Origin: Clostridiales bacterium
GTDB taxonomy: Bacteria; Bacillota; Clostridia; Saccharofermentanales; Saccharofermentanaceae
Length of the DNA: 64,000 bases
Direction: 5' to 3'
NCBI GenBank assembly: GCA_017615325.1
Contig: JAGAAI010000009.1
Location: forward strand, 1 to 64,000
Part shown: piece after piece, positions 1,282 through 41,445 of the stretch
Layout: each line of letters begins with the position of its first letter
Position numbering within the stretch: the first letter of the stretch is position 1
Position numbers and translations under genes: made by a program
The notes under the pieces: generated by a model
Database searches by the model: none
Seen by the model: only the letters and a program-made list of their open reading frames with translations
Told to the model about the DNA's origin: nothing

Positions 1282-1941
1282 ATGTATAAGATAAGTGATT
1301 ATTTGGATCTTTCCCATACGATTGCAGCAGATCTTTTCGAGGCTGTTGATTATCCCTGGGAAGTTCTGCCCTCTATAGGAGATTTCATAAAGAAGACCGG
1401 ACCAACATTGGATCCTGAGGTCTACGATCACAAAGGAGACAATGTCTGGATCGCGAAAAGCGCCAAAGTATTCGATTCCGCTTACATAGGCTCCAATGTT
1501 ATCATCGGACCTGATGCTGAAGTAAGACACTGCGCGTTTATAAGAGGGAATGCAATAGTCGGGGCCAACGCAGTGGTAGGCAATTCCACAGAACTTAAGA
1601 ACGTGATCCTGTTCGATAATGTCCAGGTTCCTCACTACAACTATGTAGGCGATTCCATTCTGGGATATAAGGCTCATATGGGAGCAGGTTCCATCACATC
1701 CAATGTTAAGTCGGATAAGACTCTTGTGGTCGTTAAATCAGAAGAAGTCAATGTCGAGACAGGCCTTAAGAAGATGGGCGCGATCGTAGGAGACTTTGTC
1801 GAAGTCGGCTGCGGTTCGATCTTAAATCCCGGAACTGTTGTCGGCCGCAATACAAGGATATATCCTTTGTCCAGCGTAAGAGGTTTTGTCCCCGCTGATT
1901 CCGTATACAAGAAGGCAGGGGAGATTGCAAATATAGAATAA
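1282..1941 (+). CDS. Left-handed beta-helix (hexapeptide repeat) protein, GlmU-acyltransferase-like
   Basis: A 219-residue protein. After an N-terminal stretch of about 55 residues it is built of hexapeptide repeats (for example IGSNVI, IVGANA, VVGNST, VEVGCG), the fold of sugar-nucleotide acyltransferases. It resembles the C-terminal acetyltransferase half of GlmU (YKAHMGAGSITSNVK), but no nucleotidyltransferase domain precedes it, and the NYDG segment of true GlmU is not evident. It lies 12 bases after glmM with an AGGGAGAT ribosome site, so amino-sugar nucleotide metabolism is the likely setting. The substrate is unknown. Proteins of this kind are often annotated as UDP-GlcNAc pyrophosphorylase-related. 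Confidence 0.8.
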   Translation: MYKISDYLDLSHTIAADLFEAVDYPWEVLPSIGDFIKKTGPTLDPEVYDHKGDNVWIAKSAKVFDSAYIGSNVIIGPDAEVRHCAFIRGNAIVGANAVVGNSTELKNVILFDNVQVPHYNYVGDSILGYKAHMGAGSITSNVKSDKTLVVVKSEEVNVETGLKKMGAIVGDFVEVGCGSILNPGTVVGRNTRIYPLSSVRGFVPADSVYKKAGEIANIE

Positions 1942-15876: not shown

Positions 15877-16497
15877 TCAGGATAGGGACTCTATAAACTC
15901 GCCGATACCGTCCGCAAGATCAGTGATACCAAGCTTTTTGTCGGAAGATACGGCATAGACCCTGGCATCAGGAGAAAACTTGAAGAGACAGGCAAGCTGC
16001 CTCTGTCTTGTAAGGCACTGGGACCTGCTCATCTTGTCGCACTTGGTGAACACGATGAAGTAGGGGATATCGGTATGATTCAGGTAATCTATCATGAGAA
16101 CGTCCTTGTCGGACGGCTCGCGCCTTATATCGAGCAGGATCAGGGCCAGCGAGATCTTGCGCCCGGACGAGAAATAGTCATCACAAAGGGAAGAGAAGGC
16201 TTCGGACTTCTCCCTGGATACCTTGGCATAGCCGTATCCCGGCAGATCTGCTATAAGCAGGCTCTTATCGACCTCGAAATACACGACCTGCCTGGTCTTG
16301 CCGGGTGTCGATGAAGTCCTTGCGAGCTTGCTGTTGTTGGCCAGGGCATTCACGAGCGAAGACTTGCCGACATTGGACCTGCCGCAAAGAACGATCTCGG
16401 GGAGACCTTCGGCGGGACACTGCTTGATTGTTGCAGCCGCTTTTACGAAAACTGTTTTCCTGAAATTTATAGTACTCATAATGCTTGATTCTAACAT
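15877..16497 (-). CDS. engB: Ribosome-biogenesis GTPase EngB/YsxC
   Basis: TRAFAC-class GTPase needed for late 50S assembly (YihA/YsxC). The 206-residue protein shows G1 GRSNVGKS, G3 DLPGYGYA and G4 TKCD, with a C-terminal segment of normal length. ATG at 16497 is used; a second in-frame ATG at 16479 is possible, and neither has a strong Shine-Dalgarno (only GTGAGA before the first). It is divergent from comEC, and one arm of an inverted repeat sits directly in its leader. Confidence 0.92.
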   Translation of the reverse strand: MLESSIMSTINFRKTVFVKAAATIKQCPAEGLPEIVLCGRSNVGKSSLVNALANNSKLARTSSTPGKTRQVVYFEVDKSLLIADLPGYGYAKVSREKSEAFSSLCDDYFSSGRKISLALILLDIRREPSDKDVLMIDYLNHTDIPYFIVFTKCDKMSRSQCLTRQRQLACLFKFSPDARVYAVSSDKKLGITDLADGIGEFIESLS

Positions 16498-16501
16498 AAA
16501 A

Positions 16502-16570
16502 TCTCACAAAACCTCGTATCCGGGTCATTTTTCTTAGTGGTTTTTGTCAGATTTCGTAGGTTTTGTGAGA
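16502..16570. repeat. 13-bp inverted repeat in the engB-comEC divergent region
   Basis: Arms 16502-16514 and 16558-16570 are perfect inverse copies (AGGTTTTGTGAGA on the plus strand), separated by 43 bases. Each arm contains TGTGAGA, pointing towards engB on one side and comEC on the other. It could be a paired operator or a large stem-loop. Confidence 0.7.
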
Positions 16571-16580
16571 CGATGTGAGA
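16545..16580 (+). promoter_or_regulatory. Phased TGTGAGA direct repeat upstream of comEC
   Basis: TGTGAGA at 16564-16570 and 16574-16580, exactly 10 bp apart, with a near copy TGTCAGA at 16545-16551. TTTTTGCC follows at 16595-16602 and ATGATATAG at 16607-16615, just before the comEC start. The same arrangement occurs upstream of the pilin-like operon at 38.67 kb. Identity as an activator site or alternative-sigma promoter is inferred. Confidence 0.6.
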
Positions 16581-16624
16581 CGATTCTACGTGACTTTTTG
16601 CCCGCCATGATATAGACACTAGTC

Positions 16625-19036
16625 ATGACGGTAACATACATTCGACAACTTATATCGAAAGCCATGCAAAGGCCGGCTTTGACCTTCGCTCTTACGGTCT
16701 TTCTTGTATTGACCTTCTTTTGCCGCGGATTCCTTCTTGCAGGCATCATCCTGCTGGCCATAATGGCAAGTCTTGTTATCTTGTCCTGCATTTTGGAATG
16801 CAGGGAAATGGCCCTTGTCATGCTTGCTGCAGCTGCCGCAGCAGTCCTGCTGGCTCAGCCGGTCCTTAAGTATAGAGGCAACGGGCTTATGGCTCCGCTT
16901 GGCATTGGAGAATACAGGGTCAGGGTGACTTCCATTCAGGCAAGGGCTGACGGGAAGAGAAGGATATACGGAACGTTGGATTCCGGAGCCCGGGTTGCTT
17001 CGGTCCTGTCTTCTGATCAGCCCTCTTGTTATCCTGCGGACCTGATCGTTATAAGAGGCGATATGGAAATGCCGTCCTGTGCATCTAATCCGGGGACCTT
17101 TGATTACCGCTCTTACCTTGCCGGGAAGGGTATCTCAAGGTCTTTAAGAGCTTATGATATGAGGCTGGAGTCAGAAGGTCGCGGGATCGGGTCTTATATA
17201 TCGGCTGTTGCATCTTTTGCCGAAGATCTAAGGTTCTCCTTTATTGACATAGTTACATCAGGAATGGACGGCGATACAAAGGCTTTGGCCTGCGCTCTCC
17301 TCTTTGGAGACAGGAGCCTTCTGCCAGACGAGACGTCCCGTGCTTTTACACTTGCTGGCGTAAATCACCTGGCAGCGGTCTCGGGCACGCATTTTACAGG
17401 CTTCCTCATGCTTTTCCCATATCTGATGAGACTTGCCGGGATAAAGAACAGACGTCTTAGCGGAGTGATCTATATTCTGTCCTGTGTCTTCATAGGATTT
17501 CTTACCTCATGGACTGAATCTGTTACCCGTGCGGCATTCATGAATGTCTGCTCTTTCTTTGGCAGGGATTCACTGTCTTCGATGAGCCTTGCTGCCATCA
17601 TCCTCATGATCTCGGATCCTTACAGTGTAGTCTCACAGGGCTTTCTAATGAGTTATGCAGCGGCGTTGGCATTAAGGTTCGTTGTCCCCGGGATAGAAGA
17701 CAAGCTGGTGGCTTTGTCTATGAACTTCATAAGACCTTCGGGATGGAAAGAGATCAGCTCACGCAGGACCGAGCTGCGCCTTCGAAAGATAGTATCAGTA
17801 TTTGCCGCAACTACAGGCTGTTCTCTTATCTTTTGCCTTTTTGCTGACAGTGTTGAGATCAGAGTCGGCCCTGTAATCATCATGATCAACATCATCGCGA
17901 CCTTAATGGTCTCTTTCATATGCGCATCTTTTATGCCGATGGCAGTCATAATGGGAATCTGGATATTATTTTCAAATGAAGCCGGCCCGGCGCAGATAGC
18001 GTTGACCTTCATGCTAGGCGTATTCAGATCATTTCTCCGACGGGCCTCTGATATCTCCTATTCTTCATTCGGGGTCTCGACTTGCCCGCAAAATCTGATC
18101 ACCTGTATAGTGATCTTTATGGTGCTCCTCATCCTTCCGAAGTGTCTTGTCAGAAAACTCCTGCTCCGCCTGTCCTGCTTTGCTCTCTGCCTGTCTCTGG
18201 GCTTCAGTGCGGCAGATCATATAAAATACGGCGTTGCCGGGATCGTCTTCGTAGATGTCGGACAAGGCGACTGTGCACTGGTTATGGCAGGAGGGAAGAC
18301 AGCCCTTATAGACGGGGGTGTAGTCTCTGAAGGCCTTGATACACTGCCCTACGTCCTGGATCACTACAATATTGATAAGGTCGACTATGCCATCATGAGT
18401 CACTGGGATCTTGACCATGTAGGCGGACTCCTGTCTCTATTTAGCCAGGGCAGGGTCGAAAGGTTGTATTCCCCATATACCGAATGCGACGAACAGGCAG
18501 AAGAAGTCCTGGCTGAAGCACTCGGCCTGTCTCCCGAAGAATGCGGGAGCTTTGTCAGAGACAATATCCGCGGGATCAGGTCAGGCGACAGCTTTGTCCT
18601 GTCTGATTCATGCAGACTCAATGTGATATATCCTGCCCGGGCCGCATCAGGCGAGAACGAGGACTCGGCAGTGATCGAACTTGATTCCTGCGGGACGAAG
18701 ATCCTTTTTACCGGTGATATTGGTCTTGAGACAGAGTCTTTGCTGACAGATTCAGGCATTCTGTCTGATATCGACATCCTGAAAGTTGCCCATCACGGCA
18801 GCCGCTTCTCAACAGGTTCTGACTTCCTTTCTGCAGTTAAGCCTGAGAATGCAGTAATATCTGTCGCCACCCGTAATCCCTATGGTCATCCTGCTCCTGC
18901 AGCTCTTGCGAGGCTCGACGAAGCCGGCTGCAGGATCTTTAAGACCTCAATCTCTGGCGCCGTCATCGTCGATATCGGCAGCGACGGCTATAAGATAACC
19001 TCATTTGTCCCGGTACAGGGCATCGACATCGGATGA
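16625..19036 (+). CDS. comEC: DNA-uptake channel protein ComEC/Rec2
   Basis: Inner-membrane channel that brings single-stranded DNA into the cytoplasm during natural transformation. The 803-residue protein starts with hydrophobic segments and a DUF4131/OB-like region (to about 200), then the multi-helix Competence domain (GVNHLAAVSGTHFTGFL, about 240-520) and a C-terminal metallo-beta-lactamase domain with DVGQGDCALV, SHWDLDHVGG and KVAHHGSRFS (about 540-780). There is no Shine-Dalgarno before ATG, and a possible -10 (TATAGA, 16611-16616) lies only eight bases upstream, so the message may be nearly leaderless. ComEA is not adjacent. Confidence 0.92.
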   Translation: MTVTYIRQLISKAMQRPALTFALTVFLVLTFFCRGFLLAGIILLAIMASLVILSCILECREMALVMLAAAAAAVLLAQPVLKYRGNGLMAPLGIGEYRVRVTSIQARADGKRRIYGTLDSGARVASVLSSDQPSCYPADLIVIRGDMEMPSCASNPGTFDYRSYLAGKGISRSLRAYDMRLESEGRGIGSYISAVASFAEDLRFSFIDIVTSGMDGDTKALACALLFGDRSLLPDETSRAFTLAGVNHLAAVSGTHFTGFLMLFPYLMRLAGIKNRRLSGVIYILSCVFIGFLTSWTESVTRAAFMNVCSFFGRDSLSSMSLAAIILMISDPYSVVSQGFLMSYAAALALRFVVPGIEDKLVALSMNFIRPSGWKEISSRRTELRLRKIVSVFAATTGCSLIFCLFADSVEIRVGPVIIMINIIATLMVSFICASFMPMAVIMGIWILFSNEAGPAQIALTFMLGVFRSFLRRASDISYSSFGVSTCPQNLITCIVIFMVLLILPKCLVRKLLLRLSCFALCLSLGFSAADHIKYGVAGIVFVDVGQGDCALVMAGGKTALIDGGVVSEGLDTLPYVLDHYNIDKVDYAIMSHWDLDHVGGLLSLFSQGRVERLYSPYTECDEQAEEVLAEALGLSPEECGSFVRDNIRGIRSGDSFVLSDSCRLNVIYPARAASGENEDSAVIELDSCGTKILFTGDIGLETESLLTDSGILSDIDILKVAHHGSRFSTGSDFLSAVKPENAVISVATRNPYGHPAPAALARLDEAGCRIFKTSISGAVIVDIGSDGYKITSFVPVQGIDIG

Positions 19037-21935: not shown

Positions 21936-24485
21936 ATGAATAGTATGTTTCTCAAGAGAGCAGTGGCTCTTGTTCTGTCTTGTGCAGTTGCTGTTCCCTT
22001 AGTTCCGATGTTCACGGGAAACAGTGATGTTCAGGCTGATGAGTTTACCAAGAACATTGATAATACCAGAGCGGGCATAAACCCGATTACTGATCCTGAT
22101 AGTTCGCCAACATATGGTTCTCTTTGGAAAGGCAACTATGTGTATTTTGGCAAATACAATAAAGAGCCGATCAGATTCCGTGTGCTTGACGACAGTTCGG
22201 ACAGATTTGGCGGTGAGACACTGTTTCTGGATAGTGATAATGTTTTGTTTGAACATGTCTTTGATGATGCTCCGTATTCAAAGATCTGGGAAGAATGCTC
22301 TCTTAGAAAATATCTGAACAATCAGTTCTATAATGATTCTTTTACTGATACAGAAAAATCAGCTGTTTGGTCCAGCAGGGCAGATTCGCATGATTATCCC
22401 GGGGATATTATTGATTTGATGGATTATATCTCCACTGATTATAAAAGTTATACTCCGCTGAAAGATGACAAGATATTTGTTCTTGACATTGAGGATGTAT
22501 GTAATAAAAAATACGGATATGCTTATTGGGACGGGATGGACTCCTATTCTAAAAAATCCAATCACCAAAAGACCTATCCTGAGTCGGATTCCTGTTGGTG
22601 GCTGCGTTCGGCAAAGACCGATTTTTCAAATTCAGTTGCCTATGTGGATCAGAAAGGTTATTTTGCTAATAGTGTTATTCAGGATCCCGGTTCTGATCCG
22701 TCTTCTGATATTCCGATCGGAGTTGCTCCTGCCTTGAATATCGATACTGACTCTATCCTGTTTTCGACATTGGTAAGCGGCGAAATGTCCAAGCCCGGTG
22801 CGGAATATAAACTAACTTTGAAAGACAATGATATCAAACTGGATCTTTCCAAGACCAAAGAAGTTACTTTTGAAGGCAATACCGTGACAGTGCCTTATAC
22901 TTTATCAGGCAAGAATGCCGGGAATGTTGATCAGTTGTCGATAGCGATCGAAAGTAACGGATGGTTCAATCTGCGTTATTACAAAAAACTGGACGTAACT
23001 CCCTCTGCAAACGGGACGGTCTCGTTTGAACTGCCCGAGGACTTCGAGCCGATGAGATGGGGGATTTCCTACCGGATATATCTGATCGCTGAAGATGTTA
23101 ACGGTATGAAAGAGACTGATTATGCCGGAGAGCCTTTGCTGATCGAAAATCCGGGCATAACACTCGATGTCAGAACTCCATTCCAAGCGGATCAAGAAGT
23201 CAGAGCGTATTTGGGTGATCTTTGTTATGGTCAATTAATAAATGGGTTCTATACCACTGAAAAAGATATGAAATACGATATCGATAAAGACGGAGAATAT
23301 GATCTGATAGTATACGCAGAAGAAAATGGCGGTTATCTTGCCAAGTTGGATAATTGTAAATTGAGAGGCAGTTATGATCTGAACGACCTTGATGAGCATT
23401 ATTATAAGATCAAAAAGTATACGTTCATATTATCTGATCTTGATGTGACTCTTGATAAAGTGAGTAACGGAACTGCGACTGTTTCAAAGACCTCTGCCTT
23501 AAGAGACGATGAGATAACAGTCACAGCGAAGCCTGACACCGGTTATGTGCTAGACAAGATCACATACACTCCCAAGGGAGGATCCGCAGTCGATATCACG
23601 GGCACCGGGAAATTTACGATGCCGAACTGCGATGTTACAGTCAGTGTCAGTTTTAAGAAGAGTGCAGAGCCGACCGCTAAGCCAACCGTAAAGCCCACTG
23701 ATAAGCCCGCAACAGTTTCTCTGAATCTTGATAAAAAGACGGCAACAGTTATCTGCGGCAAGAATTTGACACTAAAAGCAACCTTGAAGGGGTCCACATC
23801 CAAGATTGTCTGGAAGTCGTCTGATACCAAGGTTGCAACAGTTGATTCCAACGGCAAGATCAATGCCAAGATGGCAGGTGCCGTCACGATTACAGCATCT
23901 GCTGCAGGGAAGAGCGCAAGCTGCAAAGTTACGGTCCTTTATAAGGATGTAACTAACAGCAAGGACTTCTGGTATGCACCCACCAACTATCTGACGGCAA
24001 AAGGTGTAGTTAAGGGCTATGATAACCAGACAAAGTTTAAGCCTGCAAACAAGTGTACCCGCGCCCAGATGGTAACCTTCATATGGAGATTGATGGGTGA
24101 GCCTAAGCCCAAGACAAGTAAGTGCAAGTTCTCTGATGTCAAAAAAACAGACTATTTCTACAAGGCCTGCATCTGGGGCAACGAGAACCATATCGTCGAA
24201 GGTTATAAAGACGGCACTTTCGGTCCTCAGATCGTCTGCGCAAGAAAGCATGCTGTAACCTTCCTTTGGAGACTTGCGGGCCAGCCTGCACCGAAAGCAA
24301 AGACAAACAAATTTAAGGATGTTAAGAAGATCGATTACTTCTACAAGGCAACCCTCTGGGCTTCCGAGACGAATATCCTTGCGGGCTATTCCGATGGCAC
24401 CTTCCGCCCGAACGGTGACTGCCTCAGGCGCCAGATGGTAACGTTCCTCTATAAGTACGATAAGTTCGTTAACGGGAAAGGGTAA
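21936..24485 (+). CDS. SLH-domain surface protein with DUF6273 domain (paralogue 2)
   Basis: An 849-residue paralogue of the preceding gene with the same domain order: signal peptide (about 1-36), DUF6273-like domain (YVYFGKYNKEPIRFRVLD, SLRKYLN, WWLRSA), Flg_new/InlB-like repeat (about 502-575), a shortened Thr/Pro/Lys linker (about 576-590), BIG2 (about 590-668) and three SLH repeats (about 670-849). AGGAGG lies before ATG. It is very likely co-transcribed with paralogue 1 and ended by a strong hairpin. The protein-level match is strong while wobble positions differ widely, suggesting an old duplication under selection. Confidence 0.87.
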   Translation: MNSMFLKRAVALVLSCAVAVPLVPMFTGNSDVQADEFTKNIDNTRAGINPITDPDSSPTYGSLWKGNYVYFGKYNKEPIRFRVLDDSSDRFGGETLFLDSDNVLFEHVFDDAPYSKIWEECSLRKYLNNQFYNDSFTDTEKSAVWSSRADSHDYPGDIIDLMDYISTDYKSYTPLKDDKIFVLDIEDVCNKKYGYAYWDGMDSYSKKSNHQKTYPESDSCWWLRSAKTDFSNSVAYVDQKGYFANSVIQDPGSDPSSDIPIGVAPALNIDTDSILFSTLVSGEMSKPGAEYKLTLKDNDIKLDLSKTKEVTFEGNTVTVPYTLSGKNAGNVDQLSIAIESNGWFNLRYYKKLDVTPSANGTVSFELPEDFEPMRWGISYRIYLIAEDVNGMKETDYAGEPLLIENPGITLDVRTPFQADQEVRAYLGDLCYGQLINGFYTTEKDMKYDIDKDGEYDLIVYAEENGGYLAKLDNCKLRGSYDLNDLDEHYYKIKKYTFILSDLDVTLDKVSNGTATVSKTSALRDDEITVTAKPDTGYVLDKITYTPKGGSAVDITGTGKFTMPNCDVTVSVSFKKSAEPTAKPTVKPTDKPATVSLNLDKKTATVICGKNLTLKATLKGSTSKIVWKSSDTKVATVDSNGKINAKMAGAVTITASAAGKSASCKVTVLYKDVTNSKDFWYAPTNYLTAKGVVKGYDNQTKFKPANKCTRAQMVTFIWRLMGEPKPKTSKCKFSDVKKTDYFYKACIWGNENHIVEGYKDGTFGPQIVCARKHAVTFLWRLAGQPAPKAKTNKFKDVKKIDYFYKATLWASETNILAGYSDGTFRPNGDCLRRQMVTFLYKYDKFVNGKG

Positions 24486-24508
24486 GACAGGAACCAGAAC
24501 AAATTGAA

Positions 24509-24535
24509 CGGCCCCGCAACATAAATGCGGGGCCG
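24509..24535. terminator. Terminator hairpin between convergent genes
   Basis: A 10-bp GC-rich stem CGGCCCCGCA/TGCGGGGCCG with a seven-base loop, 23 bases after the SLH stop and 29 bases past the stop of the convergent small gene. T tracts on both sides are modest, so it may serve both strands. Confidence 0.75.
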
Positions 24536-24564
24536 CTTAATTTGTCGATTATCTGAAGATCTTA

Positions 24565-24738
24565 TCAGACGGCAGCTTTAAACAACTCGTCGATATCCTC
24601 CTGCTTTAATCCGGTGCATTCCTTGATAGTATCAACAGGAATACCTTTGGTAAGCATGACGGTTGCAATCTCGACAATGGTTTCCTTTTTTTCTTCCGCA
24701 ACCTCATTAGCTACAAATTCATCCCAAGTTTCACACAT
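24565..24738 (-). CDS. Small protein resembling the C-terminal tail of Rpn/PD-(D/E)XK-type nucleases
   Basis: A 57-residue protein starting at ATG 24738, with GGAGG eight bases upstream; in-frame codons further upstream would overlap that site. It has an acidic helical start (MCETWDEFVANEVAEEKKE) followed by a helix-turn-helix-like MLTKGIPVDTIKECTGLKQEDI. This matches the look of the tail of Rpn (YhgA-like transposase/recombination-promoting nuclease) proteins, but no nuclease domain is present. It may be an autonomous small protein, as such tails often are, or a remnant. Assignment by recognition only. Confidence 0.55.
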   Translation of the reverse strand: MCETWDEFVANEVAEEKKETIVEIATVMLTKGIPVDTIKECTGLKQEDIDELFKAAV

Positions 24739-24771
24739 CAATATTTCCTCCTTTGTCGTATCTTTCAACAA

Positions 24772-24808
24772 CCTCACCTTTTCTCACAAAGTCGGAAAAA
24801 GTCTCAAT
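24772..24808 (-). promoter_or_regulatory. Phased repeat upstream of the Rpn-tail-like gene
   Basis: Read on the minus strand at exact 10-bp steps: ATTGAGA, TTTCCGA, TGTGAGA, GGTGAGG (24808 down to 24772). The last two words match the spacing of the comEC and pilin-operon elements. It ends about 33 bases before the ATG. Confidence 0.5.
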
Positions 24809-24830: not shown

Positions 24831-24974
24831 GCGTGAAAGATGCCTGTAAACACTCAAAGTGGTGCCTGTACAGGCACCCAAAAGCATGATTACAGGCACC
24901 AAGCGTGAAAGATGCCTGTAAACGCTCAAAGTGGTGCCTGTACAGGCACCAAAAAACTTGATTACAGGCATCAA
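24831..24974. repeat. Two tandem 72-bp repeats packed with TGCCTGTA palindromes
   Basis: Unit 1 is 24831-24902 and unit 2 is 24903-24974, nearly identical. Each holds the perfect 18-bp palindrome GGTGCCTGTACAGGCACC (24861-24878 and 24933-24950), flanked by ATGCCTGTAA on the left and TTACAGGCA on the right. That gives eight TGCCTGTA cores in alternating orientation. It resembles REP/BIME-type mobile palindromes or a multi-site operator. The stretch 24739-25086 has no gene; it holds the phased repeat, these units, a small hairpin (25019-25042) and a promoter. Confidence 0.85.
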
Positions 24975-38514: not shown

Positions 38515-38670
38515 GTTTTGTTGCGCATAAAAGGCCGCCATGTTGCGCATTACAAGCAACAATATGCCTGATACTGTTGACACGCGAAAAGTTTCTTAAA
38601 CCTAGTAATTACTATATACTCGGTAGACTTCAATACAATTTGTAGTTTTTGTAGGCTGATTTGCCGCGTT

Positions 38671-38687
38671 TGTGAGATTTTGTGAGA
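38671..38687 (+). promoter_or_regulatory. Phased TGTGAGA direct repeat upstream of pilin-like operon
   Basis: TGTGAGA at 38671-38677 and 38681-38687, exactly 10 bp apart, followed by TTTTTGCC (38702-38709) and ATGATATGAG (38721-38730). The same word order precedes comEC at 16.56 kb. No conventional promoter with good hexamers is seen next to it. Confidence 0.6.
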
Positions 38688-38754
38688 CGTTCGTAGTTAT
38701 ATTTTTGCCTCAAATGTCGGATGATATGAGTATCAATCTAATGGAGGTGATCTT

Positions 38755-39033: not shown

Positions 39034-40427
39034 TGTTTGCCCGTATCAGAAGGAAGCGTTATCGCCGCAACAAGAGAGGCGGGATCACGCTCTTCCTAGC
39101 GATAATACTGGCGGCCTTGGTCTTCGTGGAGTGCACTTTTGTAACTTTTGTCTGGGACTTAGATCACAGGATAGCCGTTAACAGGGCGCTCAAGGCTCAG
39201 GCTGAAGCTATATTGGCTGATTACAACAGGGAACTTTTTAATGTCTACGGCATCTATGCATACAGTCTGGATGGCGTTGATGACGAGGTCTTTAAGAAGG
39301 TCCTTATGGCTAACGGATATGATGGCGGGAACGAACTGACTGTATACGGGTCTGAAAGCCTTAACGTTGATTGTCTTAAAAGGGCAATATCCGAGTACTA
39401 CAGTTACAGGATGCCCGGGATCGCTGCCGGCCTTCTTGTGGACCAGTTCGGAGAAGTCCTTAAAGAACTCGATAAGAACGGTGTCATTGATAAGCTCAAG
39501 GAATTTAAGGAGAGTGGGGCTTCATCTTATCTCATGGATATATTGAACGGGGCATCAAGCCTTGAGGATCTTCTTGCCAAAGTGGATGATACGGTCGATA
39601 TATCAGGGATATTGGCACAATCTGATGTATTTGAATCTTTCCGTAAAGGTTTGAAGGACGACCGCAATGACCTTAAAGATGGTGACATCAAGACCTCCTT
39701 AAGTGATGCGGATTGGATACTGAAGTCCCTTAATACATTCGCGGAGTTTAACGATTACAGTGTGGATGTCGGGAGCATAACCGGGTTGCAGCTCTATACT
39801 GCGCATTATGTTGCATATAACTTCGACTGCAGGCTGGATAATGATGCCGACTCCAGCATTAACGGTACAGCATTTTCCGACATCCATGAGGACAATAATT
39901 ACGATGCGGAGCATCTTCTTACCGGGCTTGACGGATACGCTTCGTGCCTGATGCTCTCAACACTTATGCACGGTGCTCTTTCAGGTATCGAATTCCTTAA
40001 ACTCCGGCAGGATAAGAAGTTCACGTCGGTCATATCCGTAGTTGCCATAGTCTTATGCGAGATCATCGCTGCCGTAAGCGAAGGTTCGGTGGAGATCCCG
40101 CCTAAGGCCATGGAGATGTTTCTTACAGGTCTCTGCGCATCTCTTGTTGCAGCAAACGATCTGGTAAAGCTCGGGAAGGGTGAGAAGATATCTGTCTTTA
40201 AAGAAAACGATACGGAGTTTATAAAAGTCGGCTACAGGGATTTTATGTTTTCGTTTGCTCTTCTGACTCCATATCCTATGGTCATGCCGAGGATACTTGA
40301 GGTTATAAAGAGGGATTACGGAGACCTTTATGTCGGAATTTCGGCTGTTACTAACTACGGAAGTTATGAATTGTCGTGTGATAAGGAATACCTGATGTAT
40401 ACAAGGGAGGCGTTCTATGAAGGTTAA
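39033..40427 (+). CDS. TadG-like/DUF5702-like surface-assembly protein
   Basis: A 464-residue protein. A very basic N-terminus (RIRRKRYRRNKRGG) precedes one hydrophobic helix (about 18-41), then a long polar, mostly helical extracytoplasmic region with a second hydrophobic stretch near 330-350. Such GGI(T)LFLA starts are typical of TadG/TadE-like proteins associated with Flp/Tad pili in Clostridia. GGGAGG upstream lies inside the previous gene; it overlaps the next gene by 11 bases. Family assignment is by layout. Confidence 0.6.
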   Translation: MFARIRRKRYRRNKRGGITLFLAIILAALVFVECTFVTFVWDLDHRIAVNRALKAQAEAILADYNRELFNVYGIYAYSLDGVDDEVFKKVLMANGYDGGNELTVYGSESLNVDCLKRAISEYYSYRMPGIAAGLLVDQFGEVLKELDKNGVIDKLKEFKESGASSYLMDILNGASSLEDLLAKVDDTVDISGILAQSDVFESFRKGLKDDRNDLKDGDIKTSLSDADWILKSLNTFAEFNDYSVDVGSITGLQLYTAHYVAYNFDCRLDNDADSSINGTAFSDIHEDNNYDAEHLLTGLDGYASCLMLSTLMHGALSGIEFLKLRQDKKFTSVISVVAIVLCEIIAAVSEGSVEIPPKAMEMFLTGLCASLVAANDLVKLGKGEKISVFKENDTEFIKVGYRDFMFSFALLTPYPMVMPRILEVIKRDYGDLYVGISAVTNYGSYELSCDKEYLMYTREAFYEG

Positions 40428-41445
40428 TAAGAAAGAACGCAGGGGATCATCGTCTCTTGAGGGGGCGATAGCTTTCTCTGCATTACTGGTGTTTATTACT
40501 GCAGTCGTTAGCATCATTGCCTTTGTAAGGGCGGATATACTGATGCAAAGGGCGGCCGAGCAGACCTCGGAGAAGCTCGCAACACTTTTTCCTGCCATGA
40601 CGACGGCGGGCGACCTGGTATCTACGGTTGCCAACGCCCTGCCTGACGGGGAACTTAAGTCGGATGTTTCTGCCAAAGCTGTTACGGCACTGGCTCAGAT
40701 CGGCAAGATAGGCATAGCAGCAGATGACATAAGCGGAGGGTCCCTAAGGGAACTCGTCATGGAAGGGGTCCTGGCAGAACGCGCCGCATCGGATATAGCA
40801 TCCGGCTATAAAGAGAGGAATAACGGTTCAGACCTTTTTATGCCGGACTATATAAATGTCATTTTCGATATAGATGACATCCACAACGTCATTTACATGA
40901 CTACGGATTATAAGATCAAAACGATCATAGGCGATATAGGAAGGTCGTGCGTTACCGCGATACCGGTATATGGGCAGATGACTCTTTTCCTGAACGGGAG
41001 TGATGCCGAAGAGCCTGCTGAAGACGATATCTGGAGCCATGACCAGATGGAAAGGGGAGACGAATTCAGGGTGCTGTACGGGGCCAATCTCCCGAAAATG
41101 TTCCCTGTGGCAGATATCTATGAAAACGGAAACGTGACTTCCATCAGGTCAGTAGACCTTACGGCCCCGGATTATTCTCAAGGGAAGGACCTCGCCAAGA
41201 CGATCAAGAAGGATATCAACAAACTGGCCAAGTTTACGGGCGATAAGATGAACTATAAAGGTGCCGATTATCTTGTAGATGACATAAAGTCAAAGACCCT
41301 TCTAGTCATTGTTCCCTCGAACAGTGACCCCGATATCAAGGCTCAGGTGGCTTCTTTAAGGTCTTATGCGGATAAAAAGGGCGTAAATCTTGATATCAGG
41401 GAGTATGGAAATTCACGAAAATATGACACATCTGCACAAGACTGA
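40417..41445 (+). CDS. TadE-like pilin-associated protein
   Basis: A 342-residue protein with a basic start (KVNKKERRGSSSLEGAIAFSA), the Glu followed by a hydrophobic helix (about 15-37) as in TadE-like proteins, then a long extracytoplasmic domain of unknown fold. GGGAGG precedes ATG inside the upstream gene. Last gene of the three-gene unit. Confidence 0.62.
   Translation: MKVNKKERRGSSSLEGAIAFSALLVFITAVVSIIAFVRADILMQRAAEQTSEKLATLFPAMTTAGDLVSTVANALPDGELKSDVSAKAVTALAQIGKIGIAADDISGGSLRELVMEGVLAERAASDIASGYKERNNGSDLFMPDYINVIFDIDDIHNVIYMTTDYKIKTIIGDIGRSCVTAIPVYGQMTLFLNGSDAEEPAEDDIWSHDQMERGDEFRVLYGANLPKMFPVADIYENGNVTSIRSVDLTAPDYSQGKDLAKTIKKDINKLAKFTGDKMNYKGADYLVDDIKSKTLLVIVPSNSDPDIKAQVASLRSYADKKGVNLDIREYGNSRKYDTSAQD

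Follow-up and report, generated by a model that had tools for sequence, protein, structure and literature searches.

Earlier work has described regulators of the Spo0A family, 0A boxes and competence regulons. The sites of Spo0A, the master regulator of sporulation, consist of tandem head-to-tail half-sites with a 10-bp period, and at the promoters activated by Spo0A, which are of the sigma-A type, they adjoin the −35 region. In the competence regulons of Bacillus subtilis (ComK) and streptococci (ComX/SigX), DNA uptake is controlled together with dprA, recA and pilus genes by a single regulator. Seven-base direct repeats with a three-base gap are also found in the heptads GGTCAAA-N3-GGTCAAA of CtsR, which is a repressor. 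For Micrococcus luteus, Tad/Flp-dependent transformation has been described (PMC4322843; discussed in PMC6668835), and many non-spore-forming Firmicutes retain Spo0A, for which an alternate role was suggested (PMC6136694).

The locus described here shares features with each of these systems. Its putative regulator carries a Spo0A_C DNA-binding domain (PF08769; PDB 1fc3, 1lq1), and the word of its tandem half-sites lies near the TGTCGAA of the 0A box (PMC3485338). Different from Spo0A, the protein of this genus comprises only about 180 aa without a recognisable receiver, spoIVA as the sole spore gene searched is absent from 85/85 genomes (TIGR02836; the B. subtilis control was positive), the targets are transformation genes and the half-site word varies by clade (TTGTGAG, TTTTCGGA). 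As in the ComK and ComX/SigX regulons, the element groups uptake, dprA, recA and pilus genes; however, ComK boxes (AAAA-N5-TTTT) and cin boxes were not noticed on non-systematic inspection of the element promoters, and the co-regulated pilus is Tad and not ComG. Micrococcus luteus likewise combines a Tad pilus with ComEA/ComEC in a Gram-positive cell, whereas the Tad-Com link here consists only of a shared cis element and a putative regulator. Finally, the element resembles the CtsR heptads as a direct repeat of seven-base words with a three-base gap, but differs in its word and its targets. Altogether, the element upstream of comEC is, judged from sequence comparison, probably one operator-promoter of a transformation regulon, at which a Spo0A-derived regulator would activate transcription via phased tandem sites.

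The comEC promoter region

The window, i.e., the whole stretch of 64,000 nucleotides that was analysed, contains comEC (PF03772, 3e-24; TIGR00361, 1e-55 with 188.8 bits against a cut-off of 190.05) together with further features that are compiled in Table 1. Two TGTGAGA words had been noted one helical turn apart before comEC, and they are indeed found at 16564 and 16574, spaced by exactly 10 bp, as part of five directly repeated units that share one side of the helix, with PWM matches at 16543, 16552 and 16562. The near copy reported at 16545 exists as TGTCAGA, but it lies 19 and not 20 bp upstream and is therefore one base off phase, the in-phase copy being TCGTAGG at 16554. Downstream follow TTTTTGCC (16595-16602) and ATGATATAG (16607-16615) before the comEC ATG at 16625. 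Neither a −35 nor a Shine-Dalgarno sequence was found in this upstream region. The claim of the initial annotation that normal promoter hexamers are missing consequently holds for the −35, but not for the −10, for which TATAGA is a candidate.

A Shine-Dalgarno sequence precedes comEC in 0/13 genomes, and in ten of the 13, TANNNT precedes the ATG at a distance of exactly 6 nt (background 1.3%). Because of this combination, the comEC mRNA is predicted to be leaderless, and it probably is so or nearly so. Most nuclease genes described below (G000, G005, G040, G063, G082) and comEA of G040 have the same leaderless look, while tadZ and the pilin-like operon feature a normal leader and ribosome site.

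The stretch 16502-16514 repeats 16558-16570 in inverted orientation over 13 nt without a mismatch and faces the divergent gene of a ribosome-binding GTPase, which is not clearly a member of the regulon.

Table 1. Coordinates of the features described in the text, given for the window unless a locus of the own genome (G000) is named.
Feature	Position	Strand	Remarks
Divergent GTPase gene, EngB/YsxC-like, 206 aa	15877..16497	-	PF01926, 1e-19
Single inverted half-site, TGTGAGA on minus strand	16491..16514	-	score 15.4, equal to the shuffle ceiling
Five half-sites in 10-bp phase, GTTTTTGTCA / GATTTCGTAG / GTTTTGTGAG / ACGATGTGAG / ACGATTCTAC	16540..16589	+	sequence layout
Core tandem pair TTTGTGAGACGATGTGAGAC	16562..16581	+	PWM score 26.1 vs shuffle best 17.1
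Candidate −10 TATAGA	16611..16616	+	8 bp before comEC ATG; overlaps TAGACA 16613-16618
comEC, 803 aa	16625..19036	+	Competence, DUF4131 and MBL domains
Weaker array copy TTTCCGACTTTGTGAGAAAAGGTGAGG	24771..24800	-	score 19.0; precedes short ORF
Second element copy TTGTAG-TTTTTGTAGG...TTTGTGAGATTTTGTGAGACGTTCGTAG	38640..38697	+	core 38669-38688, score 31.8
Candidate −10 GATGAT	38720..38725	+	40 bp past start of last TTGT; phase rule
Pilin-like operon, gene 1, 92 aa	38755..39033	+	Shine-Dalgarno GGAGG upstream
Pilin-like protein, 464 aa	39033..40427	+	N-terminal hydrophobic helix
Regulator candidate, ~180 aa	G000:C3:3040-3606 (L090:3040-3606)		Spo0A_C domain
~250-aa family, loci of G000	L003 716-1456; L007 1563-2318; L010 1563-2306; L011 1576-2319		behind element

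Target genes in the own genome

A scan of the own genome (2.64 Mb) for TTGTGAGA-N3-TGTGAGA yielded ten exact sites, with none in the reversed control and about 0.006 expected from base composition. With one mismatch allowed, 11 loci were obtained, which head comEC, the pilin-like operon, tadZ-cpaF (a TadZ-like gene followed by a CpaF/TadA ATPase gene), comEA, comM(yifB)-dprA, four paralogous nuclease-like genes, one truncated copy and one unexplained locus. Here, comEC, comEA, YifB/ComM and CpaF were identified, and dprA lies immediately 3' of comM. With assumed unit numbers, a probability of about 1e-9 was calculated for transformation units to stand behind five or more of the 11 loci by chance. 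At the strong site C8:5555, no recognisable com gene was found, and the BrnT-like gene downstream seemingly has its own promoter.

The common regulator with tandem sites that had been proposed thus gains support, since the element is common to comEC and the pilin-like operon as well as to further competence genes. The expected genome-wide enrichment was found for comEA, comM-dprA and tadZ-cpaF, but not for comF, directly upstream of which the element is absent. One cis element is shared by genes for uptake (comEA, comEC), recombination (dprA, recA) and the pilus, where recA is included on account of strong arrays in relatives; in the own genome and clade, it has only a single half-site adjoining an ordinary promoter. 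The own genome also harbours a type IVa-like pilB/pilT cluster, and the best PWM match at this operon does not exceed noise level. From co-regulation, and with Micrococcus luteus as a precedent, we infer that Tad, and not the type IVa-like pilus, could serve as uptake fibre.

Further arrays were observed outside this set. A 2-mismatch array lies 60 bp upstream of an ECF-type sigma factor gene (L015 ~1501-1579; G000:C80:11175), which may be a chance match. Others stand before very small hydrophobic peptides (L026 ~1640-1720 (+), L162 and L184; e.g., MSDYEILIVVFSAIAIIVGLLIEYIKK), which recall type I toxin or holin-like peptides.

Drift of the half-site word in relatives

Among 198 relatives, the exact word TTGTGAGA occurs in three genomes only, including the own one; in the other two (G053 and G073), the sites precede tadZ, comEA (G073) and 250-aa genes. 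Reading this rarity as poor conservation was rejected, as the word had changed in the relatives. Most genomes of the genus (Saccharofermentans-like Clostridia) carry 10-bp tandem TTTTTGTCGG/A/T repeats at the same place before tadZ, and the two-unit word TTGTCGGTTTTTGTCG gave 529 matches with at most one mismatch in 67 of the 85 genus genomes, compared to 19 matches of the reversed control. Variant words include TTGTCGA, which occurs in G082 as a triple array at each of 12 sites, and TTGTCGT in G063. The targets recur in G082, G005, G063 and G040, comprising comEC, comEA, comM, tadZ, the pilin-like operon, the nuclease-like family and recA, the latter being preceded by the element in G082, G005 and G040. 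In Saccharofermentans sp. RUI411 (L028), comEC bears the same drifted array. Most genus genomes therefore display the layout of 0A boxes, i.e., tandem direct TGTCGAA-type half-sites with a period of about 10 bp, and the own-clade word TGTGAGA is, on sequence grounds, a drifted version of this half-site.

A short Spo0A_C protein as candidate regulator

A search of the genus for Spo0A_C (PF08769) gave at most one match per genome, which was always a short protein. A profile built from these proteins found a match in 189 of the 198 relatives, nearly always as a single copy; weak matches of the profile at class level may represent ordinary Spo0A. The same profile matches the Spo0A structures 1fc3 and 1lq1 with E-values of about 1e-6. 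PF08769 itself is matched by 20/20 aligned members, with 23.1 bits and thus below the 25-bit cut-off in the case of the own member, and the match ends at approximately position 67 of the 104 profile positions. The N-terminus of about 90 aa contains an invariant D58 and is possibly a degenerate mini-receiver; a Response_reg match was obtained for 0/20 members, and no Pfam receiver was found at the N-terminus. Inspection of the region upstream of the regulator gene for autoregulation revealed no convincing array. In many relatives (e.g., L078, L080 and L089), a second conserved and often palindromic word, AAATTGAGAC / GTCTCAATTTTTGCC, precedes the regulator gene and may be another operator, of which TTTTTGCC before comEC may be a trace.

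According to the 1lq1 work, Glu213 and neighbouring arginines reportedly make base contacts. The recognition helix of Spo0A (..SRVERAIRHA..) aligns with ..xQxERDVRYA.. of the genus regulators, and Spo0A contacts G2, C4 and G5 of TGTCGAA (PMC3485338). The glutamate is kept in 71 of 82 regulators (..ERDVRY..), where readable arrays mostly consist of TTGTCG words. A serine (..SRDVRY..) is found in G000, G053 and G073 together with the word TTGTGAG, in which C4 and G5 are changed, and a valine (..VRNIRY..) in G031, G036, G044, G050, G069 and G076 together with TTTTCGGA or a variant of it, in which G2 is changed; in the latter clade, tadZ and comEC alike carry the TTTTCGGA-type word. Regulators with Ser and those with Val belong to separate, fully supported clades, and the changed half-site bases include G2, C4 and G5, i.e., those contacted by Spo0A. 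In G064, the word reads TTGTGTG and the glutamate is kept, while the glutamine two residues before it is replaced by threonine. Helix and half-site changed together in two separate lineages, a pattern that argues strongly, albeit short of proof, for the Spo0A_C protein as reader of the element.

An alternative would be that the regulon is real but its arrays are read by another DNA-binding protein, with the helix change in the Spo0A_C protein being a coincidence or reflecting other targets of its own. Coincidence is conceivable because the tree holds only three half-site changes and long stems lead to the S and V clades. The change of the recognition helix in the own lineage amounts to a single event on a long branch. 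Moreover, G052 (Ala) and G014 (Lys) have an altered helix residue but retain TTGTCG words, and the motif is present in G006 (97% complete), G022 and G045, in which no match for the regulator was obtained. Nevertheless, we regard another reader as unlikely, given the joint change in two independent clades, the 0A-box-like word (e.g., the TTTGTCGATTTTTGTCGATTTTTGTCGAAAA arrays of G082) in the tandem 10-bp layout of Spo0A sites, and a Spo0A_C protein that is single-copy and nearly universal in the group.

Promoter geometry and proposed mechanism

At the 65 tad promoters with a scorable −10-like box, the last TTGT is separated from the −10 by 29/30, 39/40 or 49/50 bp in 64 cases, whereas the distances were scattered in shuffled sequences. 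TACAAT and TATGAT predominate as the −10, which is hence sigma-A-like, and a −35 is absent. As the distance is fixed in 10-bp phase, the array is helically locked to a sigma-A-type promoter without a −35, which fits a class II-type activator rather than a sigma factor's own element.

We propose that two to five half-sites in 10-bp direct repeat (TTTTGTGAGA here, TTTTTGTCGG/A/T in most relatives) are aligned on the same side of the helix, either immediately before the usual place of the −35 or overlapping it, and are followed by a sigma-A-like −10. The Spo0A_C protein of about 180 aa would most likely bind this array head to tail, like Spo0A on tandem 0A boxes, and, once bound, could activate RNA polymerase by replacing the −35 contact. 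Targets of this activation would be the Tad pilus (tadZ-cpaF and the pilin-like operon), comEA, comEC, comM-dprA, recA and the PD-(D/E)XK-like nuclease genes, several of which would be transcribed as leaderless mRNAs.

The same arrays could instead repress, with the Spo0A_C protein shutting its target genes off as Spo0A does at abrB. Spo0A can indeed activate as well as repress, but the arrays lie upstream of the −10 at constant phase, take the place of the missing −35 and never cover the predicted start, which makes repression a doubtful reading. Even less can be said for the promoter of an alternative sigma factor, which the initial annotation had considered and in which the repeat would be an unusual −35 or extended element. 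The missing −35 hexamer and the ECF sigma-like gene near the weak 2-mismatch site (L015) would suit such a promoter; against it, the element is repeated two- to fivefold, its distance to the −10 is not a single one but varies in whole 10-bp steps with all three classes present, and the accompanying −10 conforms to the ordinary sigma-A type. A sigma factor is, consequently, very improbable here.

Returning to activation by the Spo0A_C protein, we also favour, with somewhat more reserve, a wider scenario. Here, the Spo0A lineage of a spore-less order of Clostridia would have been reduced to a short DNA-binding protein and rewired to control natural transformation directly as its master activator, acting on the Tad pilus, ComEA/EC, ComM-DprA, RecA and private nucleases. 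Its recognition code would have undergone two or more independent co-evolutionary switches, and the comEC transcripts would be leaderless. In the open-licence literature, we found no report in which a Spo0A_C protein lacking a recognisable receiver is combined, in spore-less Clostridia, with a transformation regulon and a recognition word that drifts, nor one of competence in these gut and rumen bacteria. If true, a Spo0A-type protein would control DNA uptake in gut and rumen bacteria without sporulation, and the regulator would be a switch that could make them transformable in the laboratory. The finding further points to the Tad pilus, over the type IVa-like one, as the DNA-capturing fibre, and offers regulator-site pairs in a natural series, on which changes of a recognition code can be studied.

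Further copies in the window and the nuclease-like family

As annotated before, the same core precedes the pilin-like operon (38671-38687), where the core at 38669-38688 attains the top PWM score of the window. Small genes like the 92-aa gene 1 open the orthologous operons in G082 and G040, as judged by eye, and orthologs of the 464-aa pilin-like protein, for which no Pfam family was matched, follow downstream of the element in both genomes with 33-39% identity. When three mismatches are allowed, the window by itself shows no excess of matches (8 against 7.4 expected), as a chance or compositional repeat of T-rich, G+C-poor intergenic DNA would have it, but this reading is refuted by the genome-wide count of exact sites, the near-zero reversed controls and the recurrence of the same genes in many genomes. 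Rfam returned only a tRNA over the window.

The ~250-aa PD-(D/E)XK-like family is multi-copy and stands behind the element also in G053, G073, G005, G040, G063 and G082, and one decayed (truncated) copy follows it at L002. No Pfam family was matched. Seven members share the motifs S..E...A, PDF and E..GK of the PD-(D/E)XK type. By sequence, the nuclease Bax1 is their best structural relative (E 0.002), and 7/7 members weakly resemble the end of the PADLOC candidate PDC-S68. In G082, a PDDEXK_2 family protein is likewise located behind arrays.

Gene 3 of the pilin-like operon (40417-41445, +) encodes a C-terminal restriction-endonuclease-like domain of the CDI-toxin type (PF21111, 1e-9), i.e., a nuclease domain within a putatively competence-controlled operon. 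The target behind the weaker array copy at 24771..24800 has probably decayed; the short ORF located there (MCETWDEFVANEVAEEKKETIVEIATVLMTKG..., 24480-24800, -) may represent the remaining end of a protein of the PDDEXK/Rpn type; in G082 (L157), a protein of this kind is intact and lies behind an array. In the intergenic region at 24831-24974 (+), we observed two tandem copies of 72 nt with 93% identity, each consisting of nested inverted repeats (TGGTGCCTGTACAGGCACCA).
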